This document shows, in pieces, positions 1 to 19,164 of a stretch of 19,164 bases of DNA. The stretch is taken from assembly GCA_027604665.1 (NCBI GenBank), contig JADGIZ010000218.1, positions 1 to 19,164 of the forward strand, written 5' to 3'. The position numbers and the translations under genes are program-made. The notes under the pieces were generated by a model. It did no database searches, had not been told where the DNA came from, and worked only from the letters and a program-made list of their open reading frames with translations. The stretch is from Polyrhizophydium stewartii (taxonomy: Eukaryota > Chytridiomycota > Chytridiomycetes > Rhizophydiales). Numbering within the stretch: the stretch's first letter is position 1; the number at the start of each line of letters is the position of its first letter.

Positions 1-80
1 GCCCACTGGCGCTCATGACCTCTTATCGGAAACGGGGTGAAGGAAATTTCATTGTGCATTTCATGTGCTTTAACACACAG

Positions 81-3000
81 TTCGACTTTCTCGCTCATAC
101 AAAGCTCAGGATCTTTTGTGCGCACTTCAATCCACTCTCGCACATCGATGTTGTCATGGCTGCAAACAGAACTGGACTGATCGGCCGAGACTACGGTGTG
201 TTGGTTCAGACCACTCGTTGCGAAGCTTCGCTTGAGCTTGGAACTGACTCTGGAATGTGATGGCAGTGTGGCTCTTGCCAAACGTGCCAAACGCCGATGC
301 AACCGCACAAGGAAGATGGGGTGAGGCGATCAACTCTCCGATTGCGCAATGCATCATATTGTCTCACGCTCTACAACTCGCCAAGACACGCCGCTCGACG
401 CAAGCCTGTTCCGTGGCGTGTTTTGTGTGTGGTCCTTTCTGGCGCCAAACCCAGCCGATCCATATTACGCCGCGTTCTTCCCGCGCTTCCAGACATTCGC
501 AACCTGGACCATCGCAAATCAAGCTGGCCTGTACTACAACATCAACTTTGGCCAAACAGACTCACGCCAGCAAGACTACCCGCGCAACTTCTTCTATGGA
601 GATCCGCCGACAGACAGCGTCCCTTCGACATATGTCACCGGCGCATATGACGTCACCCGCGCACTCGCATATACTCTCGAGCAGGTCAGCGATGCGACGC
701 TGCGCCGATCGCGGATGGCGTCCGTGCTGACATCGGTCGGCAATCAGATCATTGTCGATGCGCAGACGACTGGCGCTGCGCTCGCAAACGGATCGCTTGC
801 GTCGGCGATCACACTCGCAAAGCTCACCAAGGACTACACGACGAAGCCGATGCTTGTCACCATCCCTGCGTTCACGCCGCAAGGCGATCCGCTGCCAAAC
901 CCACTCATAATCGTCGAGCTGCAAGGCAAGAGCTTCACGGACGTATATGACACCGTCGCCAGTGTGTCGCTCGATCCCGTCACGGGCAACGGAAACATGA
1001 CGATCGACAAGTCAAAGTTCTTCTGGTCAGACGCACACGAGCCTGCTGCTCGCCCATCTTTGTCGCCGTGGCTGACGTGCGCGCGGCAATGTCGCACTCA
1101 GGAACGGCAACCGCTCGCTGAGCGATGTGCCGATCGACTCGATGCCCGACAAGGAGGACTTTGTCAAGACATCGGACACGATCGTTGTTGTGATGCTCGG
1201 TGCGACGCGAGTCGGCAGCACTGCTGTGCAACCACACGGCGAGTCTTGCTGATGCAGCGCGTGTGCAGCCATTGCGGCGCTTGTCGCATTGGCGTGTCTC
1301 GCGGCAGCCTTGTTTGTGATTGTCAAGGAGAAGAGCCAGTTCATTCGGCTGTTCTCGCCGCGGCTGCTTGCTGGCATCTCTGTGAGCAGCGCGCAAGAGA
1401 CACACGGCGCTGCAAAGCACACGCTGACCGCACACACGCGCGCGGCGCAGATCGGACTTGCTCTGATGCAAGTGAACTCGTTCCTGCTTGTTGGCAAGAA
1501 CAAGCCTGTCGGATGCGCGCTGCGGCCGTGGCCGGTGCCAGTTGGCGTCAGTGTGGTGCTTGCGTCTATCGTGGCAAAGGTGCGTGCGGTATGGCCATTG
1601 TTGTCGCGATGCACACTGACGTTGCTCTTGCGACTGTTCAAAGAACTTGCGCATTATCAGCGTTTTTGCGTTCAGCATGAGCCGTATGCTCTCACTTTTC
1701 GACCGGCTCAAGAAGATCCACATCATTGCAATTCACACAGTGTTGATCCTTGTTCCGATGGTCAGACGAGCCTCCTGAACCGCCACGAGTCCTTGCGCTG
1801 ATGCTGACCGAGCGTGATTGCGCAGATCCTGCTGGCAGTTGTCACGGCCATCTCGCCCATGACGTCCGATGCTGTGTATGCAAACTGGCTCGACGGATAC
1901 CAGTACACTTGTGTCGCGTCGGCCGCCGTGAACGTTGCAGTCGCTGCAGTCGTTGTCTGGATCGCGCTGCTGATGATCGGCACGTGGGTGCTGTGCTATC
2001 TCAACAGCGGCCTCCCTGACGCATACAACGACACGATCGAGTCGGCCGGGTCGGCCGCAATCATCCTGCTTCTTGGCGCTCTTGCGTTTCTTGCTGGAGC
2101 GTCGCCAGCAACGGCGACATCTGCGTTTGCGCTCGAGACGGTCTGCACGGCCGTGGCGGGCGTGACGGTTCTGATGCTGATGCTGGGCAAGCCCGTGATG
2201 AATTGCATCGTCGAAGAGATTCTCGGCGGCCGGCGTGTCAACAAGGCCGCGCGCGTGCGCACAAAGCGCAGCAGCAGGTCAAGCACTCATTCAGCGAGCA
2301 GCCACTCGCAAGTCACGAGCGTCACGTCGGACTCGTCGTTCAAAGTTTCCAAGTCGTCTGTTGCGGCCATCAACCCCAAGAGCTCGGAGATCGCGAGCGA
2401 TAAGCAAGGGCCAGAACGCCATGCCACACTCGAAACCGAGGCAATGTCGCAAGAGGTGCAGATCGACATCAGTCGTCACAGGATCTCGATTGCAATCCAC
2501 GGTGCGTTGTGCTGGTTGTGCAATCGTGAGCCGCCGAGTCGCAGCAGCGTTGACAGGCATCGGTCGGCACAGCAACGATGCTCGACACAGAGCTGCTGCC
2601 GCAGTGGCGTGCGGCCGCCATCCACCTGTTCCCGACGCCGGTCATGATGATCCGCGTCAGCACCAACAGAGCATCAAAGGCAATCGACGCCGTGCGATGG
2701 CGCTGGTCGGCGTGCGGCGATGTGCTGACATGGTCTTGGCGCTGTGTCCTGGCCGCCTGCAGATCGAGTATCTTCCGTTCGCCGAGCTGACTGGCTTCAA
2801 GCTGCGCACCAACGAACCAAATGTTGGGCAGTGCATGTGCACGCTGCACTTTGGCCGCCGCACCATCACGCTGTGCTTCGCGTCGCCGCTCAAGGCACGC
2901 TGCGCTGCATGTGCGCTGGCTCGGATGTGCTCGTGTGCGAGTGCTGACACGGAGTCGTCGCACGCAGGCGCAGGCATGGGCCGCGCTTCTTGGCCGCGCG

Positions 3001-3138
3001 CTTGTGGCCTGTGCGGGTCAGCGCGACAAGCTCAAAGACACGCACATTGTCACGAGCCTGACGCTCCAGGACCAAGCGGTGGCGGCGAGGCGAGGCGTCT
3101 CTCGGTCGCCGTCTCGCGGCGCTTCCAACGCCAAATGA
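81..3138 (+). CDS. Class C GPCR-like receptor, copy 1 (5' partial)
   Basis: Predicted exons: 81-195, 267-320, 386-1025, 1102-1199, 1269-1381, 1451-1579, 1644-1760, 1826-2501, 2573-2691, 2763-2894, 2968-3138 (TGA). Phases agree throughout. The first three exons encode the C-terminal part of a periplasmic-binding-type ligand domain (NRTGLIGRDY, then VWLLPNV, then PYYAAFFPRF). Splicing 1199 to 1269 builds TM1 (VVVMLAIAALVALACLAAAL); 1381 to 1451 builds TM2 (LLAGISIGLALMQVNSFLLV). TM3 carries GCALRPWPVP, and the second extracellular loop has YQYTC; these two Cys match the disulfide typical of class C receptors. Three more hydrophobic segments follow, giving seven in all. The tail is Ser/Lys-rich (SSRSSTHSASSHSQ) and ends in a PH-like stretch. 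The role would be a plasma-membrane sensor of a small ligand coupled to G proteins; the ligand is unknown. The first exons lie outside the window or are missing. Family assignment is strong; individual splice sites are inferred. Confidence 0.75.
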
Positions 3139-3419
3139 GGCGGCAACGGCAAGACAGCACTCGGTCCTCGGACGGGCCGCTGCTCTTTGCCACCTCATGC
3201 CTCATGGCCGCATTCTTGGTTTCTCTGTGTCCTTCTGCGCGACAGCAGCTCACCACGGCGTTGCGAGCCACCGGCAGGCAAGGCTCCTCAACAACAGACT
3301 CGCCGCTGTTGTGAGACACGCAAGGCGGCGTTTCTGGCGAGAATGAAGCGCTGACGGGTTGGCACACCAGCCGCTGGCGCAAGAGAAAGAGCGCTGGATC
3401 AAAATGTCCATGTTGAGCT
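3139..3419. other. 3' flank of receptor copy 1, no convincing gene
   Basis: This non-coding tail is duplicated at 8000-8280. Open frames exist on both strands, but none shows recognisable protein character or a plausible start and splice context. It presumably carries the 3' UTR of the receptor; no AATAAA was seen here. Confidence 0.5.
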
Positions 3420-3597
3420 CTGAGACGAAGGAGATCAGCCCAAGCCGAATCAGTGTCGTGGCAAGCACATGCTCGGCCGTGTTGGCGTCGCTCGTCTTTG
3501 TGAAGTCATCGATGCAGAGTCCCGCTCTTGCGAGTCGGGCGATACCAGGAACCGTGATCTGTGTGTGCATCTCGAGCCGATTGCCGAGTGCCAACTT
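3410..3597 (-). pseudogene. Possible minus-strand coding fragment, unrecognised
   Basis: Read on the minus strand, this unique stretch next to the duplication border has protein-like composition: LALGNRLEMHTQITVPGI followed by GLCIDDFTKTSDANTAEHV and TTLIRLGLISFVSELNM. An in-frame TGA lies just upstream at about 3610, so it would have to be an internal or terminal exon or a remnant. The downstream end runs straight into the duplicated block, where the frame loses character. It may be a gene fragment truncated when the duplication formed. No family was recognised, and the plus-strand reading of the same bases cannot be excluded. Confidence 0.25.
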
Positions 3598-3912: not shown

Positions 3913-6900
3913 ATGCTCGTCGCCATGGCTGTCGGCGCGCTCGTCTTTGCGGTCGGCGCGCAGACCCGCCCGTCGAACAAGACCGCCAACGCCGTCAACA
4001 TTGGATTCCTCGACGTCGGAAACGTCGTCACAGCCGACCAGTTCTACTTTGGTGAGTCGCTGTTTAGTTCATCTGAACCTCCCGGGTCGTCTCTACGCCT
4101 TCCAGCCTCATGGCTGCCGAGCTGCCGAGATTCTCGGGACACGCTCAGCGTGGCCCCTCCCCCTGGGCTCGCCACCCGTGTGACGTTGCCCGCCCGCGCG
4201 CGCCGCCTTGTCCCGTCAACGTCGTGCGGCTGACGCGCTGCCTCTGTCCCGCATCCGCTCGCGCGCCAGGCATGCTCATGGCCGGCAACGAAATCAATGC
4301 CAACGCGACCATCCTGCAGGATGTCACGCTCACCTTTCCGCGTATCCGTATGCAGTCCGCGACGACCCGGCCGGCGGCCGTGTACGACTCTGTTGCGTCC
4401 TTATGCGACTCGGGCCAGTACAGGGCCTTCCTGTGCAGCATCAATAGTGCGACAGGGCAGGCAATCTCTTTGATCTGCCCGACGGTGGGTCCAGTCCGCG
4501 ACCTGCCTTGTTCTTGTTGTCGGTGAGCGAGAATAGAAGATCGGCCACGCTGACGCCTCGCGTCGCGCCGCCGCCGGTCAGATCCCGACGTTTTCGTCCA
4601 CTGCAAAATCGACTCTGCTCAGTAACAAAAAGCTGTGAGTTTAATACACATACGCAACTTTGGGAACATATTCAGCTAACAACACGCTGACGTATAGTTA
4701 CCCACTTTTCTATCGCTCTCAGACACCCCTCACGCCAAACATCCTCACGATGATCGCCATGTTCCGCTACTTTGGCTGGAAGAAGACTGGAATTGTCTAT
4801 GGCGCCTCAGGCCTCTACCCAGAGACAAATGACGCCTCAAAGCAGATGTTTCCCGCATACGGCATCCAGGTGCTCACGAGCATCAAGATCCCAGACTACG
4901 ACTCGACGATCTCGACGCTGTACTATCCGCAGATCAAGGCACAGTTCGACTTTCTCGCCCAGACAAAGCTCAGGATCTTTTGCGCATACTTTGATACAGC
5001 TGTTGTGCTGGATGTTGCCATGGCGGCAAACAGAACTGGACTGATCGGCCGAGACTACGGTGTGTAATATCTGACGGCTAGTTGGAGATCTTGCCAGATT
5101 GTCGAGCTAACCGAGGTATATTTGGTTAGTCTGGTTTTCATTGAACACACCGACGTCAGATGTCAACGCCCAGCGACGATGGGGTAAGTTTTGTATCACT
5201 CATCTCGTCATGCAGCGTGTCAGCTGAAGTATGTTTGAACTGCAAGATACGCCGCTCGACGCAAAACTGCTTTCAGGCTTTCTCGTTCCATCGTTTTCAA
5301 CAGCACCAAACCCAGCCGATCCATATTACGCCGCATTCTTCCCGCGCTTCCAAACATTCGCAACCTGGACCATCGCAAATCAAGCTGGCCTCTACCGTGA
5401 CATCAACTTTGGTCAAACAGACTCACGCCAGCAAGACTACCCGCGCAACTTCTTCTATGGCGATCCGCCGACAGACAGTATTCCTGCGCAAAGCGTGATA
5501 TTCGCATATGACGTCACCCGCGCACTCGCATACACTCTCGAGCAGGTCAGCGATGCGACGCTGCGCCGATCGTAGATGGCGTCCGTGCTGACATCCGTCG
5601 GCAATCAGATCATTGTCGATGCGCAGACGACTGGCGCTGCGCTCGCAAACGGATCGCTTGCGTCGGCGATCACACTCGCAAAGCTCACCAAGGACTACAC
5701 GACGAAGCCGATGCTTGTCACCATCCCTGCGTTCACGCCGCAAGGCGATCCGCTGCCAAACCCGCTCATAATCGTCGAGCTGCAAGGCAAGAGCTTCACG
5801 GACGTATATGACACCGTCGCCAGTGTGTCGCTCGATCCCGTCACGGGCAACGGAAACATGACGATCGACAAGTCAAAGTTCTTCTGGTCAGACGCACACG
5901 AGCCTGCTGCTCGCCCATCTTTGTCGCCGTGGCTGACGTGTGCGCGGCAATGTCGCACTCAGGAACGGCAACCGCTCGCTGAGCGATGTGCCGATCGACT
6001 CGATGCCCGACAAGGAGGACTTTGTCAAGACATCGGACACGATCGTTGTTGTGATGCTCGGTGCGACGCGAGTCGGCAGCACTGCTGTGCAACCACACGG
6101 CGAGTCTTGTTGATGCAGCGCGTGTGCAGCCATTGCGGCGCTTGTCGCTCTGGCGTGTCTCGCGGCAGCCTTGTTTGTGATTGTCAAGGAGAAGAGCCAG
6201 TTCATTCGGCTGTTCTCGCCGCGGCTGCTTGCTGGCATCTCTGTGAGCAGCGCGCAAGAGACACACGGCGCTGCAAAGCACACGCTGACCGCACACACGC
6301 GCGCGGCGCAGATCGGACTTGCTCTGATGCAAGTGAACTCGTTCCTGCTTGTTGGCAAGAACAAGCCTGTCGGATGCGCGCTGCGGCCGTGGCCGGTGCC
6401 AGTTGGCGTCAGTGTGGTGCTTGCGTCTATCGTGGCAAAGGTGCGTGCGGTATGGCCATTGTTGTCGCGATGCACACTGACGTTGCTCTTGCGGCTGTTC
6501 AAAGAACTTGCGCATTATCAGCGTTTTTGCGTTCAGCATGAGCCGTATGCTCTCACTTTTCGACCGGCTCAAGAAGATCCACATCATTGCAATTCACACA
6601 GTGTTGATCCTTGTTCCGATGGTCGGCTGAGCCTCCGGAACCGCCACGAGTCCTTGCGCTGATGCTGACCGAGCGTGATTGCGCAGATCCTGCTGGCGGT
6701 TGTCACGGCCATCTCGCCCATGACGTCCGATGCTGTGTATGCAAACTGGCTCGACGGATACCAGTACACTTGTGTCGCGTCGGCCGCCGTGAACGCTGCA
6801 GTCGCTGCAGTCGTTGTCTGGATCGCGCTGCTGATGATCGGCACGTGGGTGCTGTGCTATCTCAACAGCGGCCTCCCTGACGCATACAACGACACGATCG

Positions 6901-7999
6901 AGTCGGCCGGGTCGGCCGCAATCATCCTGCTTCTTGGCGCTCTTGCGTTTCTTGCTGGAGCGTCGCCAGCAACGGCGACATCTGCGTTTGCGCTCGAGAT
7001 GGTCTGCACGGCCGTGGCGGGCGTGACGGTTCTGATGCTGATGCTGGGCAAGCCCGTGATGAATTGCATCGTCGAAGAGATTCTCGGCGGCCGGCGTGTC
7101 AACAAGGCTGCGCGCGTGCGCACAAAGCGCAGTAGCAGATCGGGGGGGCATTCGGCGAGCAGCCACTCGCAAGTCACGAGCGTCACGTCGGACTCGTCGT
7201 TCAAAGTTTCCAAGTCGTCTGTTGCGGCCATCAACCCAAAGAGCTCGGAGATCGCGAGCGATAAGCAAGGGCCAGAACGCCAGGCCACACTCGAAACCGA
7301 GGCAATGTCGCAAGAGGTCCAGATCGACATCAGTCGCCACAGGATCTCGATTGCAATCCACGGTGCGTTGTGCTGGTTGTGCAATCGTGAGCCGCCGAGT
7401 CGCAGCAGCGTTGACAGGCATCGGTCGGCACAGCAATGATGCTCGACACAGAGCTGCTGCCGCAGTGGCGTGCGGCCGCCATCCACCTGTTCCCGACGCC
7501 GGTCATGATGATCCGCGTCAGCACCAACAGAGCATCAAAGGCAATCGACGCCGTGCGATGGCGCTGGTCGGCGTGCGGCGATGTGCTGACATGGTCTTGG
7601 CGCTGTGTCCTGGCCGCCTGCAGATCGAGTATCTTCCGTTCGCCGAGCTGACTGGCTTCAAGCTGCGCACCGACGAACCAAATGTTGGGCAGTGCATGTG
7701 CGCGCTGCACTTTGGCCGCCGCACCATCACGCTGTGCTTCGCGTCGCCGTTCAAGGCACGCTGCGCTGCATGTGCGCTGGCTCGGATGTGCTCGTGTGCG
7801 AGTGCTGACACGGAGTCGTCGCACGCAGGCGCAGGCATGGGCCGCACTTCTTGGCCGCGCGCTTGTGGCCTGTGCGGGTCAGCGCGACATGCTCAAGGAC
7901 ACGCACATTGTCACGAGCCTGACGCTCCAGGACCAAGCGGTGGCGGCGAGGCGAGGCGTCTCTCGGTCGCCGTCTCGCGGCGCTTCCAACGCCAAATGA
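3913..7999 (+). CDS. Class C GPCR-like receptor, copy 2, with in-frame TAG (possible pseudogene)
   Basis: Predicted exons: 3913-4051, 4270-4484, 4582-4634, 4698-5059, 5130-5183, 5247-5886, 5963-6060, 6130-6242, 6312-6440, 6505-6621, 6687-7362, 7434-7552, 7624-7755, 7829-7999 (TGA). If TAG 5573-5575 is ignored the sum is 3018 nt, or 1005 codons plus stop. The chosen ATG opens a signal peptide (MLVAMAVGALVFAVGAQT); ATG 3928 is an alternative. The ligand domain follows the receptor-family pattern: GFLDVG, AGNEINANATILQDV, FRYFGWKKTGIVYG, RTGLIGRDY. Copy 1 has CGG at the stop position (codon 384), and the downstream seven-TM part is intact in frame. As read, the product would be a secreted ligand domain without membrane anchor. 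It could be a pseudogene, a soluble decoy, a product rescued by readthrough, or an assembly error. The acceptor for exon 3 and the donor for exon 2 are the least certain junctions. Confidence 0.7.
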
Positions 8000-8280
8000 G
8001 GCGGCAACGGCAAGACAGCACTCGGTCCTCGGACGGGCCGCTGCTCTTTGCCACCTCATGCCTCATGGCCACATTCTTGGTTTCTCTGTGTCCTTCTGCG
8101 CGACAGCAGCCCACCACGGCGTTGCGAGCCACCGGCAGACAAGGCTCCTCAACAACCGACTCGCCGCTGTTGTGAGACGCGCAAGGCGGCGTTTCTGGCG
8201 AGAATGAAGCGCTGACGGGTTGGCACACCAGCCGCTGGCGCAAGAGAAAGAGCGCTGGATCAAAATGTCCATGTTGAGCT
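4942..8280 (+). repeat. Segmental tandem duplication, unit 2
   Basis: Second unit of the duplicated block, carrying most of receptor copy 2 and its 3' flank. Besides scattered substitutions it differs from unit 1 by the nonsense change at 5573-5575 and by a small cluster at 7128-7155 in the Ser-rich tail, where unit 2 has a run of seven G and encodes SGGHSA in place of SSTHSA. Confidence 0.95.
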
Positions 8281-8419: not shown

Positions 8420-9393
8420 ATGAGCGGCAAACCCGACGTCGACGGCCCGCAGCCCGTCGAGAGCAAGGCGCTGGTTGTTCGGCAGCCGCACCCTGCGTGG
8501 GCAAGCGTCACCCGGCTCTTGCGCTCAACGAGTCTGGATGACAACACGAAGGCCAGGCTCGCAGCCGGCAAGCTGGTGAGCACCTCGCTGCCTGTCCGGC
8601 CGGCACCGAGCGCCACGAGTGCACCGCGCGGATGCTGATGGACCGCCGCGGCAGCACCGCGGGGAGCTGCTCAAGCTGCTCAGCAGCGCCGCGGCCTCGG
8701 CGCGCGCCAACCGCTCGATATGCGACGACGACATCGAGCGCATCATGGACGACGTCGGCGACGGCCTCTTCGCCCTGCGCGGACGCATCATGGACGAGCG
8801 GCTCTCTGCCGAGGCGGGCGACGGCACACCCAGCGACGACAAGCAAGGGTCCCTGGTCCGCACCAACCCGGCCCAGGAGCAAATGTTCAGGACGGTCAAG
8901 TCGGCGCTCAAGGGCAGCGCGGAGGTGCGGAGGCCCTGAATGCTTCGAGTGACTTCGAGGGTTCTGACGCTGCGCCTTCTAACAGAGCAGAGAGAGTGCC
9001 ATCGCCATGCTGGACGTTCTTGTCAAGCAGGTGGACCGGGGCCTCTGGGTTCCGAAATTCAACCAGATCGAGGATACCATTAACGATACCAGCACCCTCG
9101 CCGAGTTTGTCGGCATACTCGCCAAGCGGCGGGATGCAAAGAGCACGGGAGTCAGGGCCGTGACTCGGTTCCTGACCGCCAATCGCCTTGTGATTGCCTC
9201 GACAGTCGTCAGCGTCGCCAGGGCCGCCACAGAAATAGCACCAATCCCTGGGCTCTCCGCGGCCCTCGGGATCCTCAATGAGATCATCCAGAGCATGAAC
9301 GAGGGCTGGGACGCACAAAGGATCATGCAGGCAATCAGCGCCCGCGTCAACGAAGTCAAGGAGATCATTCTTGCCAATATGAGGCGTGTGTAG
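8420..9393 (+). CDS. Stand-alone MLKL-NTD-like four-helix-bundle protein
   Basis: Exons 8420-8575, 8655-8924, 8986-9393 join in phase 0 (introns of 79 and 61 nt) to give about 277 aa ending TAG-TAA. The N-terminal half is helical and charged (ICDDDIERIMDDVGDGLFAL). The C-terminal half contains LVIASTVVSVARAATEIAPI-PGLSAALGILNEIIQSM, which aligns with FEVASTILTVAKKAADFVPI-PGIGVALSMIETVLDNV of the large gene at 11882-17310. The shared core is VAST, then VA, then PIPG, then AL. This hydrophobic helix-PIPG-helix signature is known to me from fungal proteins with MLKL-type N-terminal domains, which act at membranes in cell death. There is no kinase or LRR part, so it may be a truncated paralogue, a decoy or inhibitor, or a partner. 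The start could lie upstream at 8345. Confidence 0.65.
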
Positions 9394-9488: not shown

Positions 9489-11730
9489 CTAGGGGCGGAG
9501 CTGGTCCTCGGCGAACGCCGGTCCTTGCATCTGTTCCTTGTGGATTGATAGCGCCCTGAATACTGCCTCCATTTCTTGCATCTGTGCTAGATAAATGTCT
9601 CCCAGGCTCTGTCCTACGATGTTGCGCTCCTTGTTGATGGCTGCGACGGGACACATCCGGCTTTGTCCGAGGGGCCGCCGTCTTGAAGTAGATTACAACT
9701 GGCCGCTGAATCAGCATACGGTCAATGTCGCTTAGAGCCGGTTGCGGTATATGCTGGAAGACGGGCGGTCCGGCATCTGTCACAATCCATGCAATTGTTG
9801 GTCAGTTTGCCTGGTCAACTGATAACCAGATGCAAAGAAAGCTAGGCTCACCAGGGCTGTCGGAGTGCCGCTGGCGCACCGACTGCTGCCGCTCCTCAAA
9901 GATGGGTGGTAGTGTTGTCGTCTGTTTGGTGAAGTAGTGACCTCGAGCCGACGGGGCCTGCCAATGCATCGATGGATACGTATTCAATGACCGCTGCAAA
10001 GACGACTGGTCTTGCAGCAGCTTGGGTTGCTGAGAGCTTTTGGGAGTCGACACTGGCTTTGATGCATCGGTGAGTGCGGGCAACTTCTGGTGCAAAGCTG
10101 CGTCATTTTGACCCGCCGCTTGTTCAGTCGAAGGGACTGGGCGTGCAGCGGCCCCGCCACCAATGCTAGGCAGGCGTATGGTGGCGTGCTTTGGCGGGAT
10201 GCTGCTTGCAGAGTGGCGCGGCACAACAAGGTTGGATGCCGGAGATACGTCCGCAGCCATCATCTCCACGCTCTCAGTTGCATGTGATAAGTCACCAGCA
10301 GCTGAAGTTGTCGCCAAATTTGTCGCTCCGGCTGACTCGACAAGTCCTCCCTCGGTCTTGGGGATCTGGCAGGCACCACCATGAGGCTCGCGTTTACGCA
10401 AGCACGACGGCGGAGGTAGCACGACGTGGACGCTTCCGCTGCCTCCGTCCTCGCCGCTCACGCGCACGACTCCGATTCCAGCATGCGGACTGAATTCCTT
10501 GGAAAGGACATCGGGCACAGGCCGCCGCCTGACAACGACGCTTGCCGGGTCGAGGATTGCACGCGCAATTCGCTCGTTGGCCGTGGCTGCGTACGCCATG
10601 GCTGCTGGTGTCGGCGCGCTGAGCGTCAGCGTCGGGGATGCCGCGAGGCAGGCACGCATTTCCGGGGATGTGTTGACGGATGCGAGTGCCTTGCGGCTGC
10701 GATGGCCAATGCGCTGTGCGTGGTGTTGCTGCTTGTGCAGCGCGTTGAGGCGAGGCCCAGGCACGGTCGAGTCGGGGTCTGGTGTTCCCAGCGGTCTCCG
10801 TCGTTGCGAAAGCTTCCGCATGAGAACCAGATCCCGGTCAATATCCGAGATGATCTTGGCGCGGCTATGTGGAAGCGGGTTCATCTCGAGCACCGTGACG
10901 ACCCGCCGCCGGTGGTGTCTGCTGTCGTAATTGTGTAGCCGTGAGCCTGCACGCTTTCGCGCTCTCACAGCCGCAGCGGCAGCACGCTTCTTCTTCCGCC
11001 GCTGCTGGCTGTTGTTCTCGAAGTCGTCGCTGTTACCGCTGCTATCCGGGTCATTGTCACTGCTGTCGCTTTCTCCTTGGCTTCCGCTGAAGTTGTCGCT
11101 GCCATCGCTGTCGTTGGAGCGTAAATGCGCCGGTGGCCGTGCATTGTTGCGAGCACCGCGAGCACGCATGGCGGCTGCGCCTCCCCCCGCGCCAGAGGGC
11201 TCGCCGTCGCTCGCCACCGCCATCGCCGCGTCATCGTGTGCGTCATCTGACCCCTCGCGGGAGGAGTGGACGTCGTCGACCCACGACACGCTCTTGCCCC
11301 CAGCAGGACGATCGCGCTGCGTTGGTCGACCGGCGCGGCCAACGCCGCCGTGCGCTTGCTCATGTCGTCGCTGGAACTGCCGTTGTCGGATCTCTCTTCG
11401 TCTGCCGCCTCGAGCAGCCTCCATTGCGGCGGCGGCGGCTTTCGTTGCGGCATCGGCAGCCGCAGCCGCGCGTGCCGCTGCTCGAGAGCCCTTTAGCCTT
11501 GCAGCTGCGGCGGCCTCGGTGGCCATTCTCCCGACTCGCTGCAGCCGGTCGTCGGCAATGTCCAGAGTGCGATAGACCCTTGTGTCGCCCATGCGAAGCG
11601 CATCTGCGCTGCCACCGCCCCTGCCCTCGGCCGCCGCATTCAGCACGTCGAGCACAGGAGGGAAGCGCAGCGGCGGCGGAGGGGGCGTTGGCGGCGGCAG
11701 CGGCTCGATCTCGATGCTGAGTGAGACCAT
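9489..11730 (-). CDS. Disordered charged protein of unknown function
   Basis: Exons on the minus strand: 11730-9852, 9776-9720, 9640-9489 (TAG), about 695 aa. Introns of 75 nt (GTGAGC) and 79 nt (GTATGC) keep the frame in phase 1. The start MVSLSIEIEPLPPP is preferred; the frame stays open upstream, with ATGs at 11859 and 11958 that would overlap the divergent gene. Features in order are Pro-rich N-terminus, Ala/Arg-rich probable coiled coil (TRVYRTLDIADDRLQRVGRM then AAAAADAATKAAAAAMEAAR), acidic Ser/Asp tract (SDNFSGSQGESDSSDNDPDS), basic RRKKKR and RARKR clusters that could be nuclear localisation signals, and a long low-complexity region. The C-terminus becomes ordered-looking after splicing (NIVGQSLGDIYLAQMQEMEA). 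No family was recognised. The acidic/basic layout would fit a nuclear or cytoskeletal scaffold, but this is only a guess. Confidence 0.65.
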
Positions 11731-11881
11731 GTTTGCGAGCGCGGCGGGAAGCAGCGGCGGCGGTGGCGGATCTGGGGCGGCGGGGGCGACGCGGAAGCGA
11801 CGTGGAACGTGGCGAAAGCACAGCACAGCCCATCGGTGCCCCACCTCCAGTGCACGCATGGCAGGGCCGCGAACGTCGAGC
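11731..11881. promoter_or_regulatory. Short bidirectional promoter between divergent genes
   Basis: About 150 bases of GC- and purine-rich sequence with GGCGGC repeats lie between the preferred starts of the minus-strand unknown gene (11730) and the LRR-pseudokinase gene (11882). If upstream ATGs are used (11858 on +, 11859 or 11958 on -) the coding regions touch or overlap. No TATA box is visible. Co-regulation of the two genes is a reasonable inference. Confidence 0.45.
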
Positions 11882-14800
11882 ATGCAGCCGCACCGGCCGG
11901 GCGACGGGCCAGGCGGGGATACCAGTGCAGCGCAAGGCGCCAGTGCATCGCCCGCCAACAGTGGCCGCGCTCAGGGTGACTTTGGCCGCAAGTTCCTCGA
12001 GTTCATGGGAGTCGAAATCCAGGACGACGACAGGCGTGGCCGCACAGCGGGCGAGCCCCAGCCAAACGAGGCGGCCGGCGCCGGCGGGCCACAAACAGCA
12101 GGCGCTGCCCTGGCTGCGTCGGACGAGCGCCGCTCGCTCCTGGTTGCGCTCGAGTCGGCGGCCGAGATCGTCAAGACGAGCGACGCCCTCGAGCCCGAGA
12201 CCGTGACCGCCAACCTCGACATCATCACTCACTCGGCAGACACGTTGGTGACGAAGCTCAAGGCCGCGCTGCCGCAGCACGAGGCCGCTTCGTTTATCTC
12301 GCGTTTCATCCCAAAGTCGCGCTTCGAGGTGGCCTCGACGATCCTCACGGTCGCCAAGAAGGCGGCCGACTTTGTGCCGATCCCGGGCATCGGCGTGGCG
12401 CTTTCGATGATTGAAACGGTCCTTGATAACGTGCGCGACAACTTTGATGCCGTTGATGACATCCGCGACTTTTGCGACGACCTGATCGAGCTCAGGAACA
12501 TTCTCACGCCGCTCACAAACGAATGCTTCTCGGCAGATGTGCGCAGCAAGATTGGCGAACTCCTCGATGTGCTCGGCGACGCGGCCGCAGCCATCAAAAA
12601 GGGCGAGTTCAAGAAGCGCACCATCTTTGTGGTCACGAACATGCCGTCCAAGGAGCTGGCTGGTGCTCTTGCTAGCTTCAAAGGCAGGATCGCCAAGATC
12701 AAGGAGGTGCGAGTTTCGCCGCCACATTATTGCGCCAATGTGATGCTGACTTTGTCGGCCCAGACCCTTTCGTACGCGATCCAGGTTGACAGCGCGGTGA
12801 TGCTCATGCACTCGGCAGAGAAGCTCAACCTGATTGACAGCAAGGTCGATCTTATCATACGGTGCGTCAAAGATGCACCAGCGATCAATGCCCGCACCGC
12901 TGACTAGCCGCCCTGGCATGCGGCTGTATTCCCTGGTGCGACCTTGTGAGCAGGATCCTGCGCCCGCGAGGCCTCAACGTACGACGCGACGACTTTCAGA
13001 TTGCCGAAACGCCCATGGACCACTCGGGCACGTTTACCGTGTATGCGGCCAAGATGGACAATGAGGCGTATGTCATCAAGGAGTTCAACGCCGCGCTGGA
13101 CGAGGTCACGCGTGACGCCGTTGAAGACGAAGCGCGCAAGTGGTTCCCGCTCAGCCATTCCAATCTGCTGCGGCTTAGCGGCATCTGCGTCGACGGGGAC
13201 GAGAAGCCGTTCGTGGCGTTGCCTTTTATCGAGCACGACCTCGAGTCTTTTTTGGCGGCCAATCCGGCGGCCGACGTCGAGGTGCGCATGCGCGTGCTGA
13301 CCCGCGTCGCCCGCGCGCTCAAGTATCTGCACCACGATGCACCCGGCGGGCCGATCTTGCATGGGTGCTTGTCCATGCGGCGAGTGCGGCTGGGTGGGTG
13401 GCCCGCATTCTGCTGCGTGATGGCAGTGATGCTGACGCTGCTGGCTCTGCTTTCCCCAGACGCCCGAGCCCGCAAGATCAAGTTGGCAATGGGCATGATG
13501 GCACACCGCTCGTCTGGCAGCGACGATGCGGCCATGTCGCCGTACACGGCGCCCGAGTGCCGCGACGAGAACGAGCTTGCCGCTGCCGCTGCCGCAAGCG
13601 GCAGCAGCAACGACGACGCCGACGAGCCCGGCGGCTCGGCACCGCCGCTCGAGCGTGACGTGTATGCTTTTGGTGTGCTGTGCGCGCATGTCCTGGCTCC
13701 CGGCGCCTCCATATTGGATCTCGCGAGAGCGTATATGTGCCCACCAAGTGTGCCTGAAGGCGTGCGCGAGACGATTGCGTCGTGTCTGACGAGTATGCGT
13801 CGGATGCGGCCCGAGATGCGCGACGTTGCCGCCGACTTTGCCGCCGCAGTCCATGTCGAGCCCACCCGCCGTCGCAGACTCGCTGCGGGAGCCTCGGACC
13901 TCGAAATACTTGTCGCCGTCTTGCCCGAATGGACCCGCGACAGCGAGATATCAACAAAGTCGGACGACCCCACAGGCGAGACTTTCTTTGTGTACGACCA
14001 CGAAACCAAGCGCAACATACCCAAGCTGCGGCTCGAGTGGGACTCGAACCACTGCCTCACTGCTTTGTGCGTGGCCCAGATGCCGCCAGATGACTCGGTG
14101 GATTGAGTACTGACGTGCAACGCAGGCGGCTCACCGGAAGCGGCCTGTCGGGCACGATTCCAAAGGAGATTGGCCGGCTGACGCAGCTGCGTGAACTGTA
14201 TGTGTACCGCACTGCTGTGAATATCCTGTTCAGATGTCGTACAGAGGCTCTGACGCTGCGGTGCAGGTGGCTTGACCAGAACGAACTCGAGGGCTCGATT
14301 CCGAAGGATATATGCAAGCTGCCTTTCCTCAAGTCGCTGTGAGACGCCGCGGAATACCCCCTTTGAGTGTGCTTCAGCCCCTCGCTCACTGGGCAGCGCC
14401 GCTTTTATGCACAGCCGCCTCGGACAGAACAGGCTTTCGGGCACGCTGCCGTACCTGATAAGCCGCTTGGTTTGTCTCGAGGAGCTGTGAGTCTCTTGGA
14501 CCAGCATCGTTTGTTGAAAGGGACTTGCGCCACTCACACGCAGCTGCAGGGTTGTTTGCGACAATCTGATCGATGCGCTGCCCGAGACGCTCGCGGATCT
14601 CGAGAATCTGCGTATTCTGTGAGCCGCTCCGTATTTTATTCAACCGGATGCACAGTGACTGGCTGACGAATGGCGGCGTAAGCGACCTGGGCAAGAACAA
14701 GATTGAGGCGATCCCACCTGAGCTCGGGCGGCTGTCCAATCTTGAAATCTTGTGAGCCTCGCTTGTATTGCGTTGCATCGCCAGGTTCCCGCGTGCTGAT

Positions 14801-17310
14801 CTGCGGGCAGGCGTATTGGTGGCACAATGGACGACCGACTCATTACGGAGGTTCCCAGCGAAATCGGCGAGATGGCCAGCCTTGTCGAGCTGTGAGGTCT
14901 TTGCATTTCTCGACTACTGTTTGATATTGCTCTGACTCGAATGGGCCGCCAGGGACCTGTCGCTCAACATGATCGAGACACTGCCGGCCGCCGTCGGCAA
15001 ACTCGCGCAGCTGAGGCGTCTGTGCGTTTGCGCGGCGGTGCATTTTGCGAAATGGCCTGGTTGCAGCTGACGAACCATGACACACAGGAATCTGCTTTTG
15101 AACAATCTCACGGAGCTGCCCGCTCAAATCGGCGAGCTCCGCGAGCTCCGGCTGCTGTGAGTCTGCACACTTTGCCTGCTCGCTTCGGCACGGTCTGATG
15201 CTTTAGAACGAATGCAGCAATGTCGGCTGCAACATGCTTACGACTTTGCCGCCTGCAATCGGAAACCTCAAGCACCTCGAGACGCTGTAAGCAGTTGGCG
15301 CAGCATGCCATATCAACATTCAGACGGATCATGCTGACGCTGCACATGGCCAATCAGCTTTGCCCACTGGAACACGATTGAGGAGCTGCCGCGCGAGATT
15401 GGCAGCCTCAAGCAGATGGAGCACCTGTATGCCATGTTGGCTTGCATGTTGATCAGCGGCTGCATCGCTGATAGGCTACTTCTGAAAACAGAAACTTGGC
15501 CCACAACAGTCTTGTGCATCTACCGCGCGAGATTGGCAATCTCCGCCAACTCGAGATTCTGTGAGTCGGCAAACTCGACCCACGGTGCGCACCGGCGCAA
15601 AGTCACTGACCGGTATGCGCTTTGCCACAGAGAGCTGGAGCTCAACAGCATCAAGGAGTTGCCATCCGAGATGGGAAACCTTGACCAGCTCATTAAGCTG
15701 TGAGACGCTTTGCAGAGCTACTGCCGTCAGTCGGCGATGCAGAGACCAAGTTAACCTCTGTTACTCGATATTCTGCGCAGGAACCTGTCTCGCAATGAGC
15801 TCAAGTCAGTCCACGACCAGATCGGCTCTGCCGACCAGCTAATTGAGCTGTGAGCGCACCAGACATGCCTTGCACATCGACTCCCAATCGGCAGCTGACT
15901 CGGCTGAGGCGTCCGACATGCAGAAAGCTGAGCCACAACCACCTCACGGCCCTGCCCGAGTCGTTTGAGGACCTGGACAGGCTCGAGATCCTGTAAGAAC
16001 GCGCAGCCATGACCAGAAAAACAGTTCGAGTCGTTGCTGACCTTGCTTTGTCAGTGATGTCTCGGGCAACGAGCTCGAGTTGCTGCCTGATGGCCTTGGC
16101 GGCATGAGAAATCTCGAACGCTTGTAAGACGCGCAACCTTTCGAGTGTTGTATGCGCAAGGCTGACTTTTGTGCGGCAGGGATGTGCATGGCAACAAGCT
16201 TGAGCAGCTGCCGAACAGCCTGTGCGAATCCAGCAACCTCAAGTGGCTGTAAGACGGGCAGCATTCGCCATCGCTGTGATGCTTGCTGACGCATATTCCA
16301 TGCAGCAACGCATCCCAAAACAAGCTCGAGTTTCTGCCAGAGGGCATCGGTGCGCTGTCGCGGCTCGAGTGGCTGTAAGCTGCACGCACACAAGCGTTTG
16401 GCAGCGCAGATGTCTGATGATCGTGCACTTTTCAGAAACATGTCAAACAACCGACTTGTCAGGATCCCGTCAAGCATATGCGATGCCACAAAACTCGCCT
16501 TTCTGTGGGTTCTGGCGGCTGCTGGATATCTGCTGGCAAAGCTGATCCCGTCAACCCCAGCGACGTGCGCCACAACCAGATTGCGAATCTGCCTGTTGAG
16601 ATGTTTTCGCTGCCAAAGCTGCAGGCGCTGTGCGTGTTTGCTTGTCACTGATTGGTGGTTTGACAGCCAGAAGCTGATCCTCTGCGCAGATACGCATCGG
16701 GAAATGTTATTGACGTGCTTCAACACGAGATTGGCGTGCTCACCAGCCTCCGTGACCTGTGGGTGCTGAATCTGAAGCCAAGCGAATATCGAGACAAAGA
16801 CTGACTTGCCTTGGCAGCGATGTCTCCGAGAACCGCATTGCAGCCGTGCCGGCATCGATTGCGGCCTTAAAGAACTTGTCGCGTTTGTAAGCCTCCTTAT
16901 GTTTGCTCGCCAAATCGCGGGAGCTGCTGACCCGTGCGCAGCGCAATTGGAAACAACCGCCTTTCGCAGGCGCCAGCAGAGATTACAGCTCTGACCAGAT
17001 TGCGCACGCTGGATCTGAGCGGCAACCAGCTTGCCGACCTGCCTGCGGGGCTTGGGAAGCTCCCGCTGCGGTTCATGTGCGGGAATGCTCAGCGGATGCG
17101 GCTGCTTTCACCTGCCCAGCTGACCTCTTGTCCACTCGCAAACTCGCAGATTCATCTCGGGCAACGCGTTCAAGACTGTGCCTCCCGGAATCCCACACAG
17201 CATGTGAGTGCCCTGACTGCGAACCTGGACGGCGAGCTGTGTTGCTGACGCCTGCTGCCAGTGTTGGCGACGCCCACTTGCTCGACGGCCATGACCAAGA
17301 CAACCAATAA
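11882..17310 (+). CDS. MLKL-like four-helix-bundle / pseudokinase / LRR protein (28 exons, ~1225 aa)
   Basis: Exons begin 11882-12706, 12764-12861, 12954-13393, 13460-14066; then 21 single-LRR exons from 14126 to 16886; then 16942-17076, 17150-17203, 17262-17310 (TAA). The exon sum is 3678 nt, exactly 1226 codons. Residues 1-60 are disordered. Residues about 80-300 are helical, with VASTILTVAKKAADFVPI-PGIGVAL at about 150-172, as in MLKL-type N-terminal bundles of fungi. Residues about 320-590 form a kinase fold: YVIKEF (beta-3 Lys about 349), LKYLHHD, HGCLSMRRVRLD in place of HRDLKPxNVLLD, KLAMGMM in place of KxADFG, YTAPE, and ERDVYAFGVL. It is therefore a predicted pseudokinase. Residues about 640-1190 hold about 23 LRRs, the first of plant type (GLSGTIPKEIGRLTQLREL). 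Intron 14067-14125 removes the TGA at 14104 and fuses kinase to LRRs as CLTALRLTGSGL. The likely role is a ligand- or damage-sensing cell-death or membrane-permeabilising protein, by analogy with MLKL. ATG 11858 would add 8 residues. Confidence 0.75.
14126..17076 (+). repeat. LRR exon array, one repeat per exon, phase-2 introns
   Basis: Exons: 14126-14197, 14267-14338, 14415-14486 (72 nt each); 14550-14618, 14683-14751 (69); 14811-14891 (81); then 69 nt each at 14953, 15088, 15218, 15358, 15492, 15631, 15781, 15924, 16055, 16180, 16306, 16436, 16561, 16690 and 16818; then 16942-17076 with two repeats. Each ends with the first two bases of a Leu (once Phe) codon and the next exon supplies the third, so all are symmetric 2-2 exons. 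The 72-nt exons encode 24-residue repeats with GxIP/GxLP; the 69-nt exons encode 23-residue repeats of the form LDVSGNELELLPDGLGGMRN. Introns are 55-81 nt. Confidence 0.9.
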
Positions 17311-17526: not shown

Positions 17527-19164
17527 TTACGGCGAGACGGGAGTGATGGCGGCAAAGTTGGTCTTGATGCCAAAGACGGCGTTCCAGGCGTCGGCCTGCG
17601 CACCGGTCTTGGCCGCCGCCTGCGCCTTGGTGCACAGCGCCTTGGCCGCGGCAGACGCCTTGCACGTGTCGTTGAGGCGGTCGCAGATGAAGCCCGTGAT
17701 CACGCCAATGTTCTACGCAGAGCCATGCGCAAAGCTCTTCTTGTCGACCGGCTGGAACGCAGTCTCCTTGCGGCCGTCAAAGCCGACGCCGAACTCGATC
17801 TGCGGCGCCGTGCACGAGCCAAACGACACCGTGTTGTCGGTCGTGCCCGTGCCCGTCGACGCGCCGGGCTTGCCGGTGCCGGCAATGGGCACTCCGGTGA
17901 CGTCGATGGCCTGGACATCGGCAAAGTTGGTCTTGATGCCGAACACGGCGTTGAAGGCGTCGGCCTGGCCGCCGGTCTTGGCCGGGGCGTTGTTGACGGC
18001 GGCCTGCGCCTTGTCGCACAGCGCCTGCGAGGCGGCAGGCGCCTTGCACTTGTCGCGCAGCTGGTCGCAGATGGCGCGGGCAATGATGCCGATGTTCTGC
18101 GCCGAGCCATGGTCGAACGAGTCGCGGTTGACGGGGCGGAACGACTTCTCCTTGCGGCCGTCAAAGCCCTTGCCGAACTCGATGGTCGGCGCCTTGCATG
18201 AGCCAAAGTCGACGGTGCCGGCGTTGCTGCCGTTGCTGCCGGTGTTGCCGGTCGAGGGGGCCTCCGTGGCGCACGACGACGTGTCCGTGACGGCCACGGT
18301 GACGGTAACGGTCTTGGTGGTGGTCGTGCCGGTGGTGGGCGACGGCGTGGTGTTGCCGCCCGTGTTGCCGCTGGCGCCGAGAGCCGCCAGCAGATCGGCC
18401 TTGGAGATGGACGGCACGGCCTTGGACTTCGAGCCCTCGAGCGTCGCCTGCGTGATGCAGTCGATCTGGTCGCCCTTCTTGATGGCACGGCCAAAGAAGT
18501 CGCCGTCGCGGTCGGCCGTCACGGGGTTGTTGTCACACGACAGCCCGCGCGCGGTGTTGTCGCCGATCTGGCCGGGGCCGAACGTCGACGTCTGCAGCGC
18601 GAGGCTGGCGGCCTCGTCGGCCGTGAAGCCCAGCTTGAGCAGGTTCTTGGCGAGCTGCGTCTGGATGCCGGCGTTACCCGACTTGCCCTCGGCAGACGCT
18701 GGGTCCTGCAGCTGCGTGAGGCCGGCGAGCTCGGCGCTGCAGAGGGGAGGCACCGAGTGACACGGAGGCGTGGGTCAGCATCGGCACGATTGTGCACCAG
18801 ACGAAGTGCGTGGCGAGGCAGGGCGAGGCGGCACTCACTTCTTGGGCGTCTTGGTGCACGTTGCCTGCGCACCGCCGACCGAGCCCGAGTTGCGCTCGAG
18901 CACGCGGAACTGCATGCACACGGCAATCTCGTTCTTGTTGTTGCCGTTCTTCTTGGCGTTGGTGACGCACAGGTCGGCGAGGTTCTGCTGCAGGCACTTG
19001 TCGTCCTTCTGCTCGGCAGAGAGGCCGGGCGTCTTGTTGATCTGGGTGATCTGCGCCTGCGTGCCGAGCGGGCCGAACACCGGGTCGACGCCGAGCAGCG
19101 GGTCGTTGTTGCCGCCCTTTTGCGAGATGGTGCGGACGGCGTTGACAATCAGGTCGTGCGAGTG
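17527..19164 (-). CDS. Secreted-type DGRK-repeat Cys protein, 5' partial, with internal TAG
   Basis: Two exons are visible: 19164-18839 (start beyond the window) and 18736-17527, with an intron of 102 nt (GTGAGT...CTGCAG) in phase 2. The first exon has several Cys (DKCLQQNLADLCVTNAKK, EIAVCMQFRVLE). The second has CDNNPVTADRDGDFF, a Thr/Val-rich linker (TTTTKTVTVTVAVTD) and two tandem modules of the pattern GSC.AP.IEFG.GFDGRKE..F.PV, then HGSAQNIG, ICD.L.D.CKA, LC.KAQAA, AFNAVFGIKTNFA. Proteins with this DGRK module occur widely in fungi as putative extracellular or wall-associated proteins; no enzymatic role is known to me. The second module is interrupted by TAG at 17713-17715 where module 1 has CAG (Gln); the frame then stays open and module-like to TAA at 17527. 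It may be a truncating allele, a pseudogene or a sequencing error. Confidence 0.7.

Follow-up and report, generated by a model that had tools for sequence, protein, structure and literature searches.

Contig JADGIZ010000218.1 of the chytrid Polyrhizophydium stewartii (GenBank assembly GCA_027604665.1; 19,164 nucleotides, analysed whole and called the window below) carries one predicted gene whose product joins an N-terminal helical bundle, a tyrosine kinase-like (TKL) pseudokinase and a long array of leucine-rich repeats (LRRs). Judged from sequence, this combination is real and belongs to a single gene. The union of the three parts in one fungal chain, put forward in an earlier reading made from the letters alone (hereafter the sequence-only reading), is borne out by the same domain order in a second species, Entophlyctis helioformis, and by a multi-copy family. 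The window is contig C218 of the 12.86-Mb, 690-contig P. stewartii assembly that was searched as the genome; contigs of this assembly are given C numbers and deposited proteins P numbers.

The predicted gene comprises 28 exons and 27 GT-AG introns of 55-92 nt, runs on the forward strand from an ATG at 11882 to a stop codon that ends at 17310, and encodes 1225 amino acids (1226 codons including the stop). Translation could alternatively start at an in-frame ATG 24 nt farther 5′, at 11858. A first exon chain, built without homology, gave 27 exons and 1246 amino acids. The final model was guided by a splice-aware alignment of E. helioformis protein P0002, which added the intron 12707-12763 and shifted one acceptor to 14550, and with these two changes the model arrives at 28 exons and 1226 codons, exactly the figures of the sequence-only reading. 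Three other proposals of this alignment (a different 5′ end, an extra intron in exon 4 and one read-through of LRR introns) were left unadopted. The parts of the gene are as follows.

11882-12706, forward strand: exon 1, with a low-complexity tail (residues 1 to about 82), a helical extension and the larger part of the bundle core (P0002 alignment, paralog homology)
About 12296 to 12861, forward strand: the stretch encoding the bundle core, with its PIPG motif inside exon 1 (paralog bundle regions)
12764-12861, forward strand: exon 2, which completes the last long bundle helix and encodes the linker to the kinase (TLSYAIQVDSAVMLM...)
12954-13393, forward strand: exon 3, the pseudokinase N-lobe and the start of the C-lobe (Pfam PF07714, E 1.3e-10; motif table)
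13078-13080, forward strand, in exon 3: codon of the retained β3 Lys
13360-13368, forward strand, in exon 3: HGC in place of HRD
13460-14066, forward strand: exon 4, the pseudokinase C-lobe, with AMG (13486-13494) in place of DFG and TAPE kept
About 13852-14066, forward strand, within exon 4: conserved cap region preceding the LRRs
14126-17203, forward strand: exons 5-27, 24 LRRs, one per exon and two in exon 26 (exon chain, repeat table, Pfam LRR families)
17262-17310, forward strand: exon 28, the C-terminal tail and stop codon (final gene model)

Two in-frame stops, at 12907 and 14106, together with a deposited annotation of the locus that is itself wrong (a fusion with a receptor-like gene, with exons skipped), could suggest that the bundle, the pseudokinase and the LRRs belong to two or three neighbouring genes joined by an artefact of modelling. 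Both stops, however, fall within introns (12862-12953 and 14067-14125) of a chain whose GT-AG introns are consistent in phase, and in the deposited homologs, P0002 and the paralogs alike, the annotation continues as one chain through both junctions. Intron 12707-12763 is likewise demanded by P0002 and the paralogs, and exon 2 behind it carries a conserved QVDSA/MLM motif. The alignment score of P0002 was 1885 on the real strand, against a mean of 200 and a maximum of 251 for 20 dinucleotide shuffles and 335 for the reverse complement. At the level of sequence, separate genes ending at 12907 or 14106 are contradicted, the single gene is recovered exactly, and we regard an artefactual fusion as hardly credible.

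The exon structure of the LRR part is highly regular: 17 of the 23 exons from exon 5 to exon 27 are exactly 69 nt long, and all introns from exon 4 to exon 28 are in phase 2. A run of 69-nt exons is also present in three paralogs that were modelled over full-length loci (C161, C57 and C409); the model of a further paralog, on C114, is reliable in its 5′ half only. The deposited P. stewartii protein HK105_003092 (P0001) carries exons of the window gene mis-fused to upstream genes. We rejected this 1965-amino-acid model, which fuses an upstream gene resembling class C G-protein-coupled receptors (GPCRs) to the locus via a truncated bundle copy, would require a roughly 2.6-kb intron spanning an antisense open frame of 722 amino acids, and skips kinase and LRR exons.

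The kinase fold was assigned on the 1246-amino-acid first model as Pfam PK_Tyr_Ser-Thr (PF07714), of TKL type. Its catalytic motifs were read from an alignment of family members with two kinases of a second bundle-bearing family of the same genome (family II, see below), both of which are intact there and served as yardsticks. The catalytic-loop Asp and the loop Asn are lost in all 20 assessable members; P0015 is not assessable, its deposited model being without the catalytic-loop stretch. The β3 Lys is kept in 21 of 21 members, the αC Glu in 19 of 21, and the DFG context is without its Asp in 21 of 21, a statement that rests on the printed context strings because the automatic alignment misplaces the DFG column by a few residues; the deposited model of P0013 looks mis-spliced at this site. 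By motif, then, every assessable member (20/20) is a pseudokinase, as the sequence-only reading had it for the window gene. A kept Lys with HRD and DFG lost resembles the motifs of MLKL.

A search of the Protein Data Bank (PDB) with the single window sequence retrieved chains of MLKL (6vbz, E 6.8e-4; 4m68, E 0.0015; 4btf, E 0.0021), which were outscored by the kinases SYMRK, IRAK1 and MET. The best 60 of its 166 matches were all kinases, with no bundle among the matches listed. Similarly, a structure model of E. helioformis P0008 compared with known structures gave only kinases among the matches listed (BRAF, CRAF, c-MET, BTK and others). A 57-amino-acid kinase piece had no tblastn match against plasmids. 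The protein P0091 is deposited as ‘Interleukin-1 receptor-associated kinase 1’; its longer model, P0092, is without the catalytic-loop Asp.

Neither NB-ARC nor NACHT was among the 12 Pfam families that matched the full protein (1246-amino-acid model) at E ≤ 1. By hydropathy, with no dedicated predictor run, we found no signal peptide and no membrane helix; the 19-residue windows scoring above 1.6 are three in number (starting at residues 522-525) and lie inside the kinase. We rejected the identity of a membrane-spanning LRR receptor kinase for this protein: its kinase precedes the LRRs, and hydropathy gives no membrane helix.

According to NCBI taxonomy, P. stewartii belongs to Rhizophydiales and E. 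helioformis to Chytridiales, both within Chytridiomycota. All 17 matches of a bundle-only protein search at E ≤ 1 are in these two species. In two other protein searches, bundle-bearing proteins of the two species made up 7 of 7 and 9 of 83 matches; the remaining 74 of the 83 lie outside the two chytrids and represent kinase families, not checked one by one. Among the matches listed, bundle-bearing relatives thus come only from P. stewartii and E. helioformis, but more distant ones may exist, because a match has to share five-residue words with the query and scoring is confined to a limited number of candidates. No match in the three protein searches was named Batrachochytrium, many of the 83 being nameless.

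The P. stewartii family has at least 11 members, with the pairs P0004/P0005, P0006/P0007 and P0091/P0092 counted once each. Those in this assembly are the window gene and the copies on C114 (P0014), C161 (P0003), C409 (P0005), C135 (P0090), C57, C660, C253 and C512, of which C161 and C409 encode P0003 and P0005 essentially as deposited. Two further members, P0006 and P0092, have best matches in this assembly that are 76% and 59% identical, respectively. E. helioformis contributes 10 deposited proteins (P0002, P0008-P0013, P0015, P0093 and P0094), some of which are possibly alleles; P0013 is labelled partial, and P0008 includes only the first LRRs. In a tree of 21 rows, one starred clade (98/97) unites eight E. 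helioformis rows and another clade (94/99) nine P. stewartii rows, from which each species seems to have expanded its own set. Weakly supported forks place the window gene, P0014 and P0002 outside the two clades.

Two divergent loci were also observed. On C474 (L011), a very long branch, a bundle is joined to a kinase that has the Asp of the HRD site and is without the DFG Asp. An LRR-kinase at the edge of C454 (L026) has HRD but GFG, and a Gln at the expected position of the β3 Lys.

The LRR array of the window protein contains 24 units, 18 of which have 23 residues, and matches Pfam LRR families down to E 3.5e-64. The long array described in the sequence-only reading therefore stands, and its count of about 23 gives way to the 24 of the repeat table. 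The consensus, LxLxxNxLxxLPxxIGxLxxLxx, is a SHOC2-type pattern.

This array appears to be evolutionarily labile. Copies C135 and C253 share one block of 2.9 kb with a mean identity of 92.8%, in which 100-base stretches range from 70% to 100%. In the part reaching from the kinase C-lobe to the end of the cap, identity is mostly 98-100%, with one 100-base stretch at 94%. The blastn alignment ends after the first LRR exons, where C253 has one LRR motif and C135 has ten. This mosaic looks like the outcome of gene conversion combined with loss or replacement of the LRR array. In E. helioformis P0094, an LRR block is repeated almost unchanged, as from a recent duplication of a group of exons.

The bundle is the best-conserved part of the protein, and the kinase is no better conserved than the LRRs. 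Mean pairwise identities among seven P. stewartii proteins (21 pairs) are 60.3% for the bundle, 43.4% for the kinase and 42.5% for the LRRs; the corresponding values for seven E. helioformis proteins (21 pairs) are 83.2%, 55.8% and 64.2%. LRR identity is inflated by the common scaffold, and several deposited models are incomplete. These values bear on the idea that the protein is a SHOC2-like developmental or Ras-type scaffold, with the LRRs as the working part and the bundle and pseudokinase serving to position them. The SHOC2-type consensus would fit such a scaffold, as would the higher identity of LRRs than of kinases in E. helioformis (64% against 56%). Yet it is the bundle, not the array, that is best conserved in both species, the array is largely missing in C253, and the copies are lineage-specific. 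We therefore consider a scaffold of this kind quite improbable.

What the bundle is related to was approached with a core set of 19 sequences, 15 of which entered an alignment (A5) that was also prepared as a reversed copy (A6); a further alignment (A4) had 11 rows. The Pfam family matched by most bundles is MLKL_N (PF22215), found in 7 of 15 (14 family members and C474; best E 1.7e-5) and in 4 of 11 of an overlapping set (best E 6.6e-5). The reversed sequences reached at best E 1.7e-3, with unrelated families. PigL_N matched 1 of 15 bundles (E 0.066), the HeLo and Goodbye profiles were not among the best 25 of the 26 Pfam families that matched the 15 bundles at E ≤ 1, and a scan with NCBIfam gave nothing useful.

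Several observations weigh against reading these matches as kinship with MLKL. Among full proteins, MLKL_N matches 4 of 8, at 18.7-20.9 bits against a gathering cut-off of 27 bits; all four lie in one P. stewartii clade and cover profile positions 45-126 of 142, and the matching paralogs are not independent of each other. The window's own bundle has no MLKL_N match in the Pfam scans of 11 and of 15 bundles. Its best Pfam match is INTS7_HB (E 1.5e-4, 22.3 of 23 bits), found in 1 of 11 members; we set this identity aside as chance, although it is the best match of the window bundle.

Structure-based comparisons gave hints of low confidence. The family bundle profile has as its top PDB match the RPW8-type CC-R bundle of NRG1 (E 0.08, non-significant), which is to be taken as a hint only, because the reversed profile reaches E 0.006 with designed bundles. 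The AlphaFold2 (AF2) model of the window bundle has a four-helix core with a predicted local distance difference test (pLDDT) score of 50, and that of P0008 has a good kinase and a poor bundle. The low-confidence order of helices in P0008 is one helix, four bundle helices and a very short helix preceding the last of them. Passages of a study of basidiomycete MLKL-like domains describe a further helix that precedes the bundle and a short one placed between h3 and h4 (PMC9815663), with which the modelled order in P0008 agrees at low confidence. In Foldseek, the window bundle model matched no structure at E ≤ 0.001, and structures of MLKL, HeLo and RPW8 were not among the 50 rows listed, which for a model with a pLDDT of 50 excludes nothing.

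We therefore treat kinship of the bundle with MLKL as plausible, not proven. The ‘MLKL-like’ label of the sequence-only reading keeps some ground, in that MLKL_N outdoes the reversed control, and loses some to sub-cut-off scores in a few related members and to the unmatched window bundle. The profile comparison it called for divides in the same manner, with MLKL_N found on 7 of 15 bundles but not on the window's, and RPW8 of Pfam on 1 of 8 bundles of family II only; the predicted four-helix bundle is helical in both AF2 models, at low confidence.

In E. helioformis P0008 and P0093, no part of the protein is more hydrophobic than the bundle's PIPG helix (1.92); the window's bundle is without a strongly hydrophobic helix. 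The low-complexity N-terminal tails of P0002, P0003, P0005, P0006, P0008, P0014 and P0093 contain a short basic-hydrophobic stretch, often with a Cys, which is a possible membrane anchor.

Forty-six matches were listed when the genome was searched for kinases, and ten further kinase loci were scanned by pattern. In three of these ten, C366 (L029), C310 (L030) and C649 (L035), an HGD catalytic loop and DFG are both present. C310 encodes a bundle, an intact TKL kinase, a cap-like region and LRRs, the order of the pseudokinase family. Two of the four Pfam matches of its bundle are MLKL_N (E 0.0064) and RPW8 (E 0.049), and this bundle has 28 matches in the genome, counted as exons rather than genes, with more than one on several contigs (loci including L042-L053). 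Across eight bundles of family II, MLKL_N matches three (best E 1.2e-5), RPW8 one (E 0.049) and PigL_N one (E 0.04); the bundle pieces of C366 and C649, scanned singly, had no MLKL_N match. In the PDB, the best matches of the family-II profile are designed bundles, and hhalign shows a weak similarity between the two families of bundles that is better than its reversed control (P 0.005 against 0.089). The bundle-kinases of family II are natural candidates for upstream kinases of the pseudokinase proteins or for their ancestral form.

We tentatively propose that the window protein is an LRR-gated bundle-pseudokinase switch of P. stewartii, for which cell death would be possible but not required; this is a possibility that in our estimation falls only slightly short of probable. 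The protein would probably be intracellular, its role probably immune or directed at non-self, and its action possibly lytic. The LRR solenoid would bind either a partner or a non-self or danger ligand, whereupon the pseudokinase would change conformation, perhaps when ATP-bound or when phosphorylated by an intact bundle-kinase of the same genome. This change would free the N-terminal bundle, which could then form oligomers at a membrane, much as the four-helix bundle of MLKL, HeLo and CC-R domains do. The oligomerised bundle would give a defence or incompatibility response, which may be lytic. Such a switch is suggested by the single gene, the recurring domain order, the dead-kinase motifs, the MLKL_N matches in both bundle families, the hydrophobic PIPG helix of P0008 and P0093 and the turnover of the LRR array.

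An alternative is a non-lytic adaptor, in which the bundle oligomerises or docks at a membrane and the pseudokinase-LRR part is a scaffold or decoy that regulates family-II kinases without any killing. The intact bundle-kinases in the same genome, with C310 showing bundle, kinase and LRRs in the same order, point this way, as do the window bundle without a strongly hydrophobic helix and an MLKL_N similarity confined to part of the profile. A multi-copy, recombining family with LRR turnover resembles a receptor repertoire more than a housekeeping scaffold, and with this non-lytic receptors would still be compatible. On balance, we find the adaptor possible but doubtful.

The switch could also be stated more boldly, as a class of LRR immune receptors in early-diverging fungi that do without a nucleotide-binding oligomerisation domain (NOD). 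Such receptors would combine an LRR sensor, a pseudokinase switch and a lytic bundle of the MLKL superfamily. Gene conversion and the turnover of LRRs exon by exon would diversify them, and sister proteins with an MLKL_N/RPW8-like bundle, an intact kinase and, at least once, LRRs would trigger them as RIPK3 triggers MLKL. We rate this version as unlikely; if true, the one-chain receptor would be a fungal counterpart of the resistosomes of plant NOD-like receptors (NLRs).

The gene product is not an NLR (it has no NOD), and it is only possibly a member of the MLKL family. With animal MLKL, the executioner of necroptosis, the protein shares an N-terminal helical bundle followed by a TKL pseudokinase in which the β3 Lys is kept and the catalytic Asp and DFG are lost; it differs in the added LRR array and cap, and its bundle similarity lies below the Pfam cut-off. 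No animal or plant MLKL is known to have LRRs in the chain. Plant MLKLs, reportedly described by Mahdi and colleagues in 2020, with wheat Pm13 said to be of the same sort, likewise pair a bundle with a kinase-like domain and have an immune role; we compared them by sequence through the Pfam MLKL_N profile alone. The plant RNL and CNL classes of NLRs (NRG1 and ZAR1) have the same layout of an N-terminal bundle, a middle switch and a C-terminal LRR sensor, but their switch is an NB-ARC domain and that of the chytrid chain is a pseudokinase. The mode of action of the product may combine, in a single chain, those of MLKL and of a plant coiled-coil NLR.

Among fungi, the consulted passages on NLRs describe MLKL-superfamily bundles with NACHT or NB-ARC and without LRRs (PMC12881547, PMC10197012). 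HeLo, Goodbye-like and basidiomycete MLKL-like NLRs resemble the chytrid protein in that, in the relevant excerpts, a bundle of the MLKL superfamily is N-terminal in a fungal sensor protein (PMC9815663, PMC12881547), but there it is combined with NACHT or NB-ARC and with WD40, ANK or TPR repeats, whereas the chytrid chain has a pseudokinase and LRRs and no NOD. LRR receptors are stated to be almost wholly absent from fungi, in a passage that gives four LRR-kinase genes for Batrachochytrium dendrobatidis (PMC2939053). These too combine both domains in one chytrid protein with no transmembrane region; the excerpt gives them by Pfam content and mentions neither a bundle nor a pseudokinase (PMC2939053). 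MLKL homologs with Sel1 repeats are, according to part of another study, reported in Glomeromycotina only (PMC8778642); they likewise join an MLKL-type domain to repeats in early-diverging fungi, but the repeats are Sel1, not LRR. No account of a bundle-pseudokinase-LRR architecture was found among the literature matches listed (open-access text in PubMed Central).

The architecture could represent an unexpected candidate kind of fungal immune or cell-death receptor. The family would place LRR-based, perhaps cell-death-linked recognition in zoosporic fungi, and would suggest that the pairing of bundle and pseudokinase is older, or has been reinvented more often, than the animal and plant cases show.

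The remainder of the window holds a second, incomplete relative of the gene.

8580-9393, forward strand: truncated family copy, with the N-terminal extension and the first bundle helices followed by a stop (family bundle protein matches)

Its matches lie at 9154-9354 (E 9.9e-7) and 8983-9372 (E 4.3e-28) of C218. This copy, wrongly included in the deposited P0001, has neither kinase nor LRRs and may be either a decaying paralog or a bundle-only gene.

Two open frames lie on the reverse strand. The 722-amino-acid frame (9802-11970) is of low complexity, has no Pfam match at E ≤ 0.01 and lies head-to-head with the LRR gene, with which, if real, it would share a short promoter region. A frame of 353 amino acids (17713-18774), with no Pfam match at E ≤ 0.01, contains an internally repeated cysteine-containing motif. 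Further upstream, on the forward strand, the class C GPCR-like gene is present in two copies, at about 1-3500 and 4650-8200, and accounts for ANF_receptor and 7tm_3 in P0001. One 300-nt pair, its two members 4861 bases apart, has 91% identity, and the two gene copies probably arose by tandem duplication.

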